In this document: positions 5,720-15,735 of the stretch, piece after piece
Numbering within the stretch: the stretch's first letter is position 1
How the letters are laid out: the number at the start of each line of letters is the position of its first letter
From: a bacterium
GTDB taxonomy: Bacteria > AUK180
Assembly: GCA_023144005.1 (NCBI GenBank)
Contig: JAGLGN010000035.1
Span: 1 to 20,388, forward strand
Reading direction: 5' to 3'
DNA length: 20,388 nt
Notes under the pieces: model-generated
What the model saw: the letters and a program-made list of their open reading frames with translations, nothing else
Database searches by the model: none
Told to the model about the DNA's origin: nothing
Translations under genes and position numbers: made by a program

Positions 5720-6012
5720 GAAGCATCATATTCAATATTCTTAATAAATATTATATTTATAATTTATCGGCAACTGATCACATCAGATAAAATAGGGGAT
5801 AATTAATATTCCAGCAATTTCAGTAAAATAGTATGAAATACTGAAATAATTGTTGTTCAAGAAAAAGCAGACATACAGGAACATATCAAGGAGTGACTTC
5901 GGGGCTTAGGATCGATATTTGAGACCCGTCAGCGTAATCGTCCTATATAACAGGGTATAAGGAATAGAATGTCATAATCTAAACAATAAGGATATATAAC
6001 CGGGCAGTAATC

Positions 6013-6046
6013 TGTGGAAAACCGGGGGTTTATACACTTATCCACA
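6013..6046. promoter_or_regulatory. Convergent pair of DnaA-box sequences
   Basis: TTATCCACA at 6038-6046 is a perfect consensus DnaA box. Facing it on the other strand, 6013-6021 reads TGTGGAAAA, one mismatch from the reverse consensus. The pair ends 17 bases before the dif candidate. DnaA binding, if real, could mean titration or local regulation; an origin is less likely because the flanking genes converge here. Confidence 0.45.
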
Positions 6047-6063
6047 GGCATTTCATATACATT

Positions 6064-6091
6064 ACTTTACATAATGTTGATTATCGGAAGT
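6064..6091 (-). other. Candidate dif site (XerC/XerD chromosome dimer resolution)
   Basis: Read on the minus strand this 28-mer is ACTTCCGATAA, then TCAACA, then TTATGTAAAGT: the 11-6-11 layout of dif. Against the Bacillus subtilis dif as I remember it, the XerC arm matches 9 of 11, the XerD arm 10 of 11 and the centre 3 of 6. The two arms are mutually inverted at 8 of 11 positions, as expected. It sits between convergent gene blocks and at a change of GC skew, the setting expected for dif at the replication terminus. No integrated XerCD-using element is visible next to it. Confidence 0.7.
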
Positions 6092-6210
6092 AATATATGT
6101 GTAAAATAATCCCCTCTGGTGCGCATTTCCGCATCATATCAGGGTCTACTGTTTATATTCCCTCTTTGTTTCTAATCTGCATCTTCCCCTGTATTATCTC
6201 AACTTCTTCA

Positions 6211-6292
6211 TTATCCAGAAATATCCACCTGATTTATTATGTTTCTTCTATCGACCAGAATATTAGAAATATTTACGATCTTGTTATTCACC
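6211..6292 (+). promoter_or_regulatory. Weak DnaA-box-like sites
   Basis: TTATCCAGA at 6211-6219 and TTATTCACC at 6284-6292 each differ from the relaxed TTATNCACA box at one position. Alone they could be chance; they are recorded because of the perfect box 170 bp upstream. Confidence 0.2.
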
Positions 6293-6760
6293 ATCATTTC
6301 AGTAATTAATTCAATTATAATTCCCCTATGCGAAAATCCCGACATGTATTGGTATGGCATTGATCGATATCGTGCCTTAGAATCAATATTTGGAAGCCGG
6401 ATTTTTACCCTTCTTGTAATTACTGACATATAGGGTATATGTATCAATTGACGGTAATTAGCTCTCCAAAATTGCGCTACATTTTGAAATGATCCCGATC
6501 CTCTGCATACCTAATTCGCTGTAAATGCATTACCTAGGTATATGGCCCACCAGAGTTGCAATCGACGCTATATCTTGTACATGATAGTATATTCATGATC
6601 TGTCAGGCCATTAATGATACTGTTCTTGACGCCTATTTTAAGACAAGTGAAATATATCACATGAGATGATAATGAGGTAAATTTACCCTATTGATATCAG
6701 TATATAAGTGTCAGTATAAAGGACGGTATTTTGAAGAGTACCCTTTCTTAATCACGCGCT

Positions 6761-10834: not shown

Positions 10835-13231
10835 TTACTTCAGGCCCTGCAGATACTTCACGGCTTCGATCCCATCTCTACAATAGATACAGCCCAATTT
10901 ATCGGCCATCATTTTGTTGACTACGGCACCTCCGATCAAGATGGGCACCTCCACGTCATTATCTCTCAAGTACTTGACCGTTCCCGCAAGATTGTCAAGT
11001 GTGGTCGTCATCAGAACACTCAGACCGATAAAGTCACATTTTTCCTTTTTAAATACACGGAGTATTTCCTCAGGGTGAACATCCTTTCCCGCATCTACCA
11101 CATCGAATCCGTACCCTTGCAGGATCACCTTCACCAGGTTTTTGCCGATATCGTGAACATCGTCCTTAACCGTTGCCATGAGGATCTTTTTTCCTGAAGA
11201 AGGATTATCTCCGTCCACAAGGTGAGGATGAAGTATCCTCGATGCCTCCTGCATGGCTTTCGCGGAGGAAATGACCTGTGGAAGAAAGAAGTTTCCCTTT
11301 TGAAACTCATCCCCGACATGTGCGATCGCAGGAAGTAAATGATCGTTAATTATTGCCAATGCGCTTTTGCCTGTATCCATAAGGTCTTTAATGTCATCAA
11401 GCAATTGCTCGTCAAGTCCGTAAATAATATCTCGGTGCACCCTTTCATCCGGAGGAAGCACCTCCTCATCATTAATTTCAATATCCGGTGAGATATCCGT
11501 GGCTGCGCCGATGAAATTCTTACACCCCGGATCATTTCCCTTAAGCAATTCTCCGGCGATCTGATAGCCCTGATGCTTTCTCTTGCCGGAAGTGTTGTAT
11601 ATCCCCATGGATAGCCCGGATTCAATGGCCTGTTCTAAAAATGAACTATTCAGCATAGCTCTGTTTGGAAGCCCGAATGAGATATTGCTTATCCCCATGA
11701 TCGTTGTTATCCCCTCCTTTCTGAGGAGTTCAAGCGTTTTCAATGAAGCAATTGCAGCCTGGTCATTTGTGGATATGGTGGTGACTATCGGATCTATAAT
11801 AATATCTTCTTCCGGGATGCCCTCGGAAACGAGAAGCTCTATAAGTTTCATGGCGATCCTGAAGCGGTCTTTCGGTTTGAAACTGATGTCCTTTTTATCC
11901 ATGGCAAGGCCAACTACTGCCGTTCCAAAAGTTTTCACAAGAGGAATTACCCTTTCAAGAAGTTTTTTACTGAGGTAAACGGAGTTGATCACCGGTTTGC
12001 CTGATATGTATTTAAGGCCTTCCTCGAATATCGCCGGGTCGGGAGAATCCAGAAAGATCGGAATATGGGCAGTATTTTGAATTCCGTACAGAATATCTTT
12101 CAGAAACTCATTTCCGGTTTTTTTTAATACGGTATTCAGATTTATATCAAGCGCATCTGCGCCATTCTGGAACTGTTCGAACACTTCCATTTTAAGGGCG
12201 GACAGATCTCCCTTAAGAAGTCCCTTTCTTAACCTGCTGTTTGTGGAAGTATTTATTTTCTCTCCGATTGAAACAAACGGCAATCCTTTACCTGCTCTGA
12301 CAGTGCTTATCCTGTCCGTAAAGACCGTCGCACGGATAAAATCCTGTTGAACTGGACGCTTCCATTTTATTTGTTCGGCGATACGCTTGGTATGCTCTGG
12401 TGTGGAACCGCAGCAGCTTCCGATAATGTTCGCACCCGCTGAATAGAAACGCTGAGCGATGACAGCCAGCGCTTCTGGATTCTCGGGATGAAGAACTTCA
12501 CCATTTAAATGATAGGGTATCCCCGCATTTGGCTGAACGATCACGGGTCTGGAGGTGGATTTTCTAATTTTCGGAAGGATATCCAAATATGCTTCAGGAG
12601 TTGTTCCGCAATTAATACCTATAATATCCGCTCCCATTGCTGACGCTACGCATGCGAAGGTCTCCGGTTTTGTGCCGGTTACCGTTTGATCGCCATTGAA
12701 GCTCATCTGTGCAATGATATCCCTGGAAAATTCCTCAGAGGCAGCGATCAGTATTGCCCTGAGTTCCTGCAGATCTGTAATTGTCTCAATAGTCACTGCA
12801 TCCACTTCACTTCTTTCAAAAGCCCGGAACACGCGTCTATAGCCGAGAAGAGCCTCATCGAATTCAAGTTCGCCGAACGGTTTCAAAAATTCTCCCGAAG
12901 GTCCCACGGAACCGGCGATATAAATATCAGCTCCGGCATCTTTTCTCGCCTTGACAGCACACGATACTGCTGCTGCTATTAAGGTCTCGAGTTCGTTTAT
13001 AAGGCCGAAATGACGGAGTCTGAACGGATTTGCATTGAATGTATTGGTTGTAATAAGATCAGCTCCGAATTCTATGTAAAATTTGTGAAGCATGGTGATC
13101 TTTTCACTCATTTCAAGGTTCCAGACCTCAGGAAGAAGGTTTGGCGGAAGTCCCATTTCATGAAGCATTGTGCCGTAAGCACCATCGGAGACGAGAACTC
13201 TTTCCTTGAGTAGCGAAATGAGGCTTCTCAT
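10835..13231 (-). CDS. metH: B12-dependent methionine synthase lacking the activation domain
   Basis: A 798-residue cytoplasmic enzyme transferring methyl from 5-methyl-tetrahydrofolate through cobalamin to homocysteine. The homocysteine domain (about 1-295) has the zinc cysteines C208 (GINCGTTPE) and C273/C274 (GSCCGSTPEH). The pterin domain (about 316-560) shows IGEKIN and GADALDIN. The B12 cap (about 600-675) is followed by the Rossmann B12 domain with DVHDIG (691-696), where H693 is the expected cobalt ligand. The C-terminal reactivation domain found in E. coli MetH is absent and is supplied by the adjacent gene, as in Thermotoga maritima. Its ATG overlaps that gene's stop as ATGA and is preceded by GGGAGAAGAA, a good ribosome site. 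It is the last of three overlapping met genes. Confidence 0.95.
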   Translation of the reverse strand: MRSLISLLKERVLVSDGAYGTMLHEMGLPPNLLPEVWNLEMSEKITMLHKFYIEFGADLITTNTFNANPFRLRHFGLINELETLIAAAVSCAVKARKDAGADIYIAGSVGPSGEFLKPFGELEFDEALLGYRRVFRAFERSEVDAVTIETITDLQELRAILIAASEEFSRDIIAQMSFNGDQTVTGTKPETFACVASAMGADIIGINCGTTPEAYLDILPKIRKSTSRPVIVQPNAGIPYHLNGEVLHPENPEALAVIAQRFYSAGANIIGSCCGSTPEHTKRIAEQIKWKRPVQQDFIRATVFTDRISTVRAGKGLPFVSIGEKINTSTNSRLRKGLLKGDLSALKMEVFEQFQNGADALDINLNTVLKKTGNEFLKDILYGIQNTAHIPIFLDSPDPAIFEEGLKYISGKPVINSVYLSKKLLERVIPLVKTFGTAVVGLAMDKKDISFKPKDRFRIAMKLIELLVSEGIPEEDIIIDPIVTTISTNDQAAIASLKTLELLRKEGITTIMGISNISFGLPNRAMLNSSFLEQAIESGLSMGIYNTSGKRKHQGYQIAGELLKGNDPGCKNFIGAATDISPDIEINDEEVLPPDERVHRDIIYGLDEQLLDDIKDLMDTGKSALAIINDHLLPAIAHVGDEFQKGNFFLPQVISSAKAMQEASRILHPHLVDGDNPSSGKKILMATVKDDVHDIGKNLVKVILQGYGFDVVDAGKDVHPEEILRVFKKEKCDFIGLSVLMTTTLDNLAGTVKYLRDNDVEVPILIGGAVVNKMMADKLGCIYCRDGIEAVKYLQGLK

Positions 13232-13830
13232 TTCTTCTCCCAGCCTATTACCGCGGATACGGATTTTTCTGGCAGCATTATCATTGAATCGGTAAGCCGA
13301 ATACCTATCTTTCCGGCATCGGTGAGCGCAAAAAAAAGCTCTTGATTTGACAGTGCAAGATCACCATACCCCGGGCTGAACCTTCTTGTGATATCGCAGC
13401 CGTCCAGTCCCGCTCTGACAGCGGTATTTCTCTCCACGACTTCTGCAAGCCTTTCCACATATTCGGAACCTACAGCATCGAGGATCACACCGTCAACCTC
13501 ATTGTCACCCTTCATATTTTTCTTGATCTCTTCCTCAAGCGATCCGCCGATCGTGGCGAAGAACAATGTCATTATTCGAGAGTTCCGAAAAAGCTTCGCC
13601 AGATTTTTACTGATGATCGTTTCACCTTTTTCTATAATGATCCTTTCACCGGCGATAAAGAGTTCGACCTCTTTGTATGTATATGCAGGTTCTATATGCA
13701 CCCTTGCGTATTCTATGGCGCTCTTTATCTTGTCGAGTGTTTTTCCGTCCAATGGCTTACCCCTTTTGTACCCAAGCCGGAAAAGGACACGCTCCGTGTC
13801 AATATCTAATCTGATATTTTTGACGATCAT
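13228..13830 (-). CDS. Free-standing B12-dependent methionine synthase activation-domain protein
   Basis: A 200-residue protein homologous to the C-terminal AdoMet-binding domain of MetH, which supports reductive methylation of inactivated cob(II)alamin. The hallmark RFSPGYGDLALSNQ (150-163) and the closing MLPEKSVSAVIGW (185-197) are present. The family counterpart in Thermotoga maritima is likewise a separate gene next to a truncated MetH. The ATG at 13830 overlaps the upstream stop as ATGA and is chosen for that reason; a GTG at 13839 is the alternative (203 residues). It overlaps genes on both sides by four bases, so stoichiometric coupled synthesis with both partners is expected. The electron donor needed for reactivation is not encoded in the window. 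Confidence 0.9.
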   Translation of the reverse strand: MIVKNIRLDIDTERVLFRLGYKRGKPLDGKTLDKIKSAIEYARVHIEPAYTYKEVELFIAGERIIIEKGETIISKNLAKLFRNSRIMTLFFATIGGSLEEEIKKNMKGDNEVDGVILDAVGSEYVERLAEVVERNTAVRAGLDGCDITRRFSPGYGDLALSNQELFFALTDAGKIGIRLTDSMIMLPEKSVSAVIGWEKK

Positions 13831-15659
13831 ACTTGGCACGCCTTAATGATATTCTTTACAAGTCCATATCTGTTAAATGGTGTCATTATGCATACACCTT
13901 CGGCATAATCTCTGAATTTTTCGATCAATTCAACGGTCAACTCAATGCTCAATGAAGCGGAAGCAGACTTATCCAGTCCTTCGAATTTCTTCAGGATATG
14001 GTCAGGGACAGTGATCCCTGAAACCTCATTTTTCAGAAACTCCGCATGCTGATAGTTCACAAGCGGAATTATCCCAAGTATCTTCGGTAGCCCCAAAGAG
14101 GAGAGCTTATTTGAAAGTTTTTCTGCCTGATCGATATCATAAATGGGCTGCGTTTGGACAAAATGAGCTCCGCTGGCGATCTTTCTTTTGAGGTGGTCGA
14201 GAGCTTTCTGATCATCAACGATCGAGTATCCTGCGGCAACACCGATATTAAAATCGGTTCGAGTGGTGATCTCATTTCCCAGATAATCCTTTCCTTCATT
14301 AAGGTGTGATATTATCCCGACAAGGCCAAGGGCATCCACTTCATAAACAGCGGTGGCAAAAGGGTAATCTCCAACGGAAGGAGGGTCACCCGTAAGTGCG
14401 AGTATGTTATTTATTCCGAGAGAATATGCTGTAAGGAGGTCGGATTGTATCCCGATCAGGTTCTTATCACGGCAAGTAAAATGGAGTATCACATCAAGAT
14501 CAAGCTCTCTTTTCGCTATATATGCAAGGCCCGAGCTGGATTGCCTTAATCGCCCCATAGGAACATCGGCGACATTGATCGCGGAGACCTCCAGTTCCTT
14601 CAGATCTTTCAGAAAATCCATAACTTTTGTATTGTCAACAGTTTTCGGGGGATCCACTTCGACAGTGATCGAAAAATGATCGTTAAGGATCTTTCTAAAT
14701 TTGTTGGGAAATTCTACTGTTACGATCCTTTTTCTTTTAGTGATGTCTTGCTTTTTCTTACCGGCTGCAGGCTTTTTTGCTTTGATACTTTTAAATTCAT
14801 TCCTTCTTTCATATACAGCTTTAATATGCTCAGGAGTAGTCCCGCAGCATCCACCGATTATATTTACTCCATTCTTTATGAACTGTATCGCATAATCGGA
14901 AAAATATTTAGCCGTGACCGGATATCGGTACTGTCCGTATTGAAATTCCGGCTGCCCGGCATTGGGATGCACCAGCACGAATTCGGCAAAGGAAGTGATT
15001 TGAGTGAGTATCTGAGAAAGACTTTGAGGTCCTATTCCGCAATTCGCTCCGATCATCCTCGCTCCGGCTTCCTTTAGGGTACGAGTAGCTTCATCGGGCG
15101 ACACACCGAACATCGTCTTTCCGTTTGCAAGATAGGTAAGCGAACAACTCACAGGAAAGCCGGGATGAAGTTCGAACACCGCTTCCAGCGCGAGGAGGAT
15201 CTCATTAAGATTTGAAAATGTTTCCAGCTTAATAATATCCGCACCGGCATCTAAAAGGATCCCGATCTGCTCCAGATAGATATCCTTCATATATCCGCTT
15301 TCAAACCTGTCCACATCCTCATAAGGCCGGGATATCGGGCCGACCGAGGCGGCTACATAATGATCTCCGGGAATTTCTTTGACAAGGAGTGTCCCCTGTT
15401 TGTTTATTTCCTGTACATGATTCTCCAGACCGAAATACTTGAGTATGTGGTGATTTGCGCTGAATGTATTTGTCGTTATTATTTCTGCGCCGGCAGTAAT
15501 ATATTCGCGGTGTACACTCGTTATCAGATCAGGGTGTGTTATATTCAAATAATCATAACACTCTCCCTTTGGGATCTCCTTAGAATTAATATAGGTACCC
15601 ATGGCGCCATCCATAATAACGGGTCCCTCAAGCAGCCTTTCGAATATCTTCTTTTTCAT
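13827..15659 (-). CDS. Bifunctional homocysteine S-methyltransferase / 5,10-methylenetetrahydrofolate reductase
   Basis: A 610-residue fusion. The N-terminal homocysteine methyltransferase domain (about 1-285) has zinc cysteines C207 (GANCGIGP) and C271/C272 (GGCCGTTPEH). A lysine-rich linker (about 290-312) leads to an MTHFR (MetF) domain (about 328-610) with ITVEVDPPKT (E334, matching the catalytic Glu of E. coli MetF), ALTGDPP and FVQTQPIYD. The same fusion is known as YitJ in Bacillus subtilis. The MTHFR half makes the 5-methyl-tetrahydrofolate used by the MetH encoded two genes downstream. The methyl donor of the first half is not evident; S-methylmethionine or methyl-folate passed via MetH are possibilities. 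ATG 15659 is chosen because the in-frame extension to TTG 15689 has no family resemblance; the ribosome site is weak. Confidence 0.92.
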   Translation of the reverse strand: MKKKIFERLLEGPVIMDGAMGTYINSKEIPKGECYDYLNITHPDLITSVHREYITAGAEIITTNTFSANHHILKYFGLENHVQEINKQGTLLVKEIPGDHYVAASVGPISRPYEDVDRFESGYMKDIYLEQIGILLDAGADIIKLETFSNLNEILLALEAVFELHPGFPVSCSLTYLANGKTMFGVSPDEATRTLKEAGARMIGANCGIGPQSLSQILTQITSFAEFVLVHPNAGQPEFQYGQYRYPVTAKYFSDYAIQFIKNGVNIIGGCCGTTPEHIKAVYERRNEFKSIKAKKPAAGKKKQDITKRKRIVTVEFPNKFRKILNDHFSITVEVDPPKTVDNTKVMDFLKDLKELEVSAINVADVPMGRLRQSSSGLAYIAKRELDLDVILHFTCRDKNLIGIQSDLLTAYSLGINNILALTGDPPSVGDYPFATAVYEVDALGLVGIISHLNEGKDYLGNEITTRTDFNIGVAAGYSIVDDQKALDHLKRKIASGAHFVQTQPIYDIDQAEKLSNKLSSLGLPKILGIIPLVNYQHAEFLKNEVSGITVPDHILKKFEGLDKSASASLSIELTVELIEKFRDYAEGVCIMTPFNRYGLVKNIIKACQV

Positions 15660-15735
15660 ATTAATCTGAAGGGCCACCCAACTTATCAAATATTGTCATT
15701 TCTTTCTGACTATTTTTATACTCTTTCATCCTCAT

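Follow-up and report, generated by a model that had tools for sequence, protein, structure and literature searches.

We identify, within a bacterial contig of 20,388 nt (herein referred to as the window, which is the whole contig; contig C29 of the genome labelled G000, an assembly of 2.67 Mb in 38 contigs that is 96% complete), a 28-bp site that is very probably the chromosomal dif site (table 1). This identification is based on a single genome-wide match that is kept in the family and has a low chance of arising in simulated genomes, on the presence of XerD, XerC, and FtsK genes together with a GC-skew maximum close by, and on the chromosomal setting of the contig (which carries methionine synthase, photolyase, and tRNA-Arg genes and is syntenic with a congener). 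The dif site itself is ordinary, a known kind of site in a new taxon, and it probably locates, with a precision of a few hundred bases, where replication ends in a lineage about which little is known. The sole part beyond the known dif pattern is a conserved pair of DnaA-box-like sequences at its side.

Table 1. Features in and around the gap that contains the dif site, in window coordinates.
Feature	Position	Strand	Remarks
Probable dif site, 28 bp	6064..6091	-	XerC arm 6081-6091, centre 6075-6080, XerD arm 6064-6074; exact sequence; genome-unique; nearly identical sites in three relatives from the family; 19/22 arm positions shared with B. subtilis dif
DnaA-box-like sequence TTATCCACA	6038..6046	+	17 bp from XerD arm
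Second DnaA-box-like sequence TTTTCCACA (TGTGGAAAA on plus strand)	6013..6021	-	42 bp from XerD arm
Putative weaker box-like sequence TTATACACT	6030..6038	+	Between the two; two bases off TTATCCACA
24-nt direct repeat, copy 1	5905..5928	+	Brackets dif
24-nt direct repeat, copy 2	6376..6399	+	471 bp from copy 1
Nucleotide cyclase-AAA-TPR protein, 1227 aa	2036..5719	+	Convergent flanking gene
Paralogous cyclase-AAA-TPR protein, 1328 aa	6761..10747	-	Convergent flanking gene

On its minus strand, the site reads ACTTCCGATAA-TCAACA-TTATGTAAAGT, exactly the 11-6-11 layout that had been predicted from the sequence, and its conserved XerC and XerD arms resemble the Bacillus subtilis dif (CodV/RipX) at 19 of 22 positions, a predicted count that holds against the published site, ACTTCCTAGAATATATATTATGTAAACT (PMC3025954). 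The runner-up place in the window agrees at 14 of the 22 arm positions and the best place on another contig of this genome, 271 kb long, at 16; across six simulated genomes (2.67 Mb each, with dinucleotide make-up taken from the window), 19 was reached nowhere and 18 at one place. When the whole genome was scanned for dif, as the original prediction had proposed, with the site's own arms as the pattern and up to three mismatches allowed, the site was the sole match, and a reversed control arm pattern gave none at the same tolerance. A single copy on the chromosome, a position at the switch of GC skew, and two recombinases accompanied by FtsK are features that the site shares with XerCD/dif systems in general.

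The site is also kept among relatives. In the congener (G001) and in members of two other genera of the same family (G003 and G004), each genome has a single main site, ACTTCCGATAA-(TGTATA/TATATA)-TTATGTAAAG(T/C), with identical XerC arms. Its non-coding location is kept as well: the dif of the congener lies in the same gap, within a gene order common to both contigs, and the sites of G003 and G004 have different neighbors. No convincing dif was found in a further member of the family (G002) or in the sister family, whose assemblies comprise 190 to 470 contigs, and this fragmentation is perhaps the cause. This negative result and the centre both count against the identification, TCAACA being unlike the TGTATA or TATATA of the relatives. 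The congener differs from the window at these 6 bp (TGTATA) though the proteins of the region are mostly more than 90% identical.

The original prediction had seen three independent signs of a replication terminus in the dif-like sequence, the converging genes, and the skew change between them. All three are present: the flanking genes do converge, and the plus strand passes from G excess (61 G and 51 C at 5721-6060) to C excess (103 G and 134 C at 6092-6760), counts that proved exact. The signs are not fully independent, however, because convergent genes by themselves add to the skew change; the genes that flank dif have third-position skews of +0.08 and +0.11 on their sense strands. Skew was measured contig by contig, the assembly being in 38 pieces with no genome-wide curve, and the proposed comparison of the skew extremum with the site places the cumulative maximum 36 bp from dif in the window (at 6028), likewise 36 bp in the congener (6206 vs. 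dif at 6242), and 218 bp from it in G004 (87312 vs. 87530), on a contig of 139 kb where the skew change persists over tens of kilobases. Under a uniform expectation, the chance of each such proximity is ~0.003, the window genome and the congener being close relatives and hence not independent. The dnaA gene lies on contig C35 of the same genome (271 kb), where cumulative skew declines over ~150 kb before it flattens out and reverses; its minimum, which is broad and noisy, is located 4.7 kb from the dnaA match. This turn is origin-like and opposite to the turn at dif. In G004, the cumulative minimum lies 40 kb from dnaA. The prediction of a probable replication terminus is thereby supported by the single genome-wide match, the skew maximum, the opposite turn on the dnaA contig, and the Xer and FtsK genes. 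Although the position of dif generally follows the point where skew shifts, it is debated whether forks meet exactly there (PMC3025954), and we infer that their exact meeting place here lies near dif.

Exactly two proteins in the genome match the phage-integrase family. One scores above the curated XerD cut-off; the other fits XerC best and falls 12 bits below the curated cut-off for XerC, which counts against the dif identification. FtsK_gamma has one match, within a protein whose best family is FtsK. Together, these proteins make up the components of a canonical Xer system with two recombinases. By analogy with the Escherichia coli and B. subtilis models of Xer binding and catalysis (PMC5357621), ACTTCCGATAA would be the arm bound by XerC and TTATGTAAAGT the one bound by XerD; FtsK would translocate and so bring together both dif copies of a chromosome dimer, its gamma domain would activate XerD at the paired copies, and strand exchange across the 6-bp centre would resolve the dimer. 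The dif site lies between the convergent genes, probably where the two replication arms meet. Xer binding and recombination at 6064-6091 are thus expected from these models.

An alternative is that the site was left behind by the attachment of a mobile element that uses dif, or is the pdif site of a plasmid, and such sites do exist in the family: in G004, a degenerate second dif-like copy (ACTTCCGATAATATATAGTACGTAAAAC), 34 kb from the intact dif, bounds a prophage, and the unusual TCAACA centre in the window might be a trace of past exchange. We consider this origin of the window site very unlikely. Both of its arms are intact, whereas the degenerate copy retains its XerC arm and centre but has an altered XerD arm; the genome has no second copy to delimit an element, the window proteins that were scanned include no recognized phage or plasmid gene, and the gene order is shared with the congener. 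Uniqueness and chromosomal setting led us to reject a mobile-element or plasmid site at 6064-6091. Even less probable is that the gap is a replication origin with dif beside it, as its two DnaA-like boxes within 35 bp, adjoining AT-rich DNA, might suggest. An origin would be expected at a skew minimum, where skew turns from minus to plus, but the turn at the gap is from plus to minus, the sign of a terminus; dnaA, with a box cluster of its own, lies on another contig that has the opposite turn, and the strong dif identity of the site likewise speaks against an origin. The skew sign, the separate dnaA locus, and the dif match led us to reject this reading, and the chromosomal dif is retained.

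All four family members that have dif carry a pair of TTWTCCACA-like boxes on the same (XerD) side of it. The first box lies 17 bp from the XerD arm in the window genome, the congener, and G004, and 25 bp from it in G003; the second, whose orientation varies, starts 42-45 bp from the arm in all four. The window thus has two near-consensus boxes within 34 bp of a short non-coding segment, with a weaker third, in an arrangement that is conserved in the family. We conclude that the box pair is real and, on present data, family-specific. Boxes beside dif as a general trait were rejected: a search of 386 genomes for an XerD arm followed by a box gave many chance matches, the XerC arm being present only in the four family members, and a match in G005, for example, is without the left arm.

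The most probable reading of the pair is as a small cluster of DnaA-binding sites at the terminus, and from the motif we would give binding by DnaA itself roughly an even chance. That the boxes arose by chance, or are sites for another protein (such as a Xer accessory protein), falls somewhat short of an even chance: the orientation of the second box and the spacing of the first vary between genera, only three independent lineages stand behind the pair, and the second box of G003 is one base off consensus. Against this, the region upstream of dnaA has this same box motif in both G004 and the window genome, and the flanks of dif have otherwise largely diverged between genera but the boxes are kept. 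The background rate of boxes is ~0.05 per kb in both genomes where it was computed, from which the chance of two boxes within 100 bp on one side is ~1e-5. Furthermore, among 34 comparison dif-like sites from elsewhere, which were found by pattern alone and some of which may not be true dif, 33 lack even a single exact box within ~100 bp and the remaining one (in G128) has just one; a pair is found at none of the 34.

If the pair is indeed a DnaA-binding cluster, its candidate uses, all of them speculative, would include a DnaA sink, a terminus signal, or an accessory element of dif; any particular role of DnaA at the boxes is less probable than binding. We consider it rather doubtful that the family possesses a DnaA-binding module physically tied to dif, through which the initiator might read or act on the terminus. 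Were this the case, the module could serve as a signal or sink that doubles once the last segment has been copied, or could aid dimer resolution or fork convergence. The boxes pose a testable question: origin-type DnaA boxes are kept less than 60 bp from dif in at least three genera, and the pair is absent at the dif-like sites of other lineages.

The TCAACA centre and the box pair beside the XerD arm both set the window site apart from the B. subtilis dif and other XerCD sites. The pair resembles the DnaA-box clusters known outside oriC (datA and DARS of E. coli, and those of B. subtilis and Streptomyces) in that a few TTWTCCACA boxes lie in a non-coding gap away from dnaA. This putative cluster is unlike datA, DARS, and other such clusters in directly adjoining dif; those discussed for B. 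subtilis and Streptomyces lie near oriC (PMC4585315). A search of the literature, mostly of non-subscription sources, returned papers on DnaA-box clusters and on dif, and those consulted showed no link between the two.

The prophage of G004 occupies 34 kb between the intact dif and the degenerate copy (G004:C14:87530-121769; loci L058-L060 and L088), the intact dif having the box pair on its chromosomal flank. Among the products of the prophage are a terminase, a head-tail adaptor, and a structural protein, and it has two tyrosine recombinases of its own, a Xer-like integrase beside the degenerate copy and a second further in. Like the gonococcal genomic island and TLC-phi, it is bounded by an intact dif and by a second copy whose XerC arm and centre are kept but whose XerD arm is altered (PMC5357621); unlike them, it combines tailed-phage genes with two own tyrosine recombinases, one of which adjoins the degenerate site.

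No clear gene, Rfam RNA, or terminator was found in the gap between the convergent genes. A 24-nt direct repeat, CTTAGGATCGATATTTGNNANCCG, occurs twice in the window genome and twice in the congener (6083-6106 and 6554-6577, locus L071), in every case at dif, and in both genomes one copy stands on either side of dif, with the same orientation and a distance of 471 bp between them. These repeats were considered as polar fork traps and rejected, as copies that point the same way misfit a Tus- or RTP-type trap. The two genes that flank the gap are distant paralogs (~30% identical), and TPR genes are also found near dif in G003 and G004. Beyond them, three genes at 10835-15689 together encode a split methionine synthase; their products are a protein of 798 aa with S-methyltransferase/pterin-binding/B12-binding parts, a short one matching the activation domain (203 aa), and, judged by eye, a putative fusion of a homocysteine methyltransferase with a methylenetetrahydrofolate-reductase-like part (620 aa).
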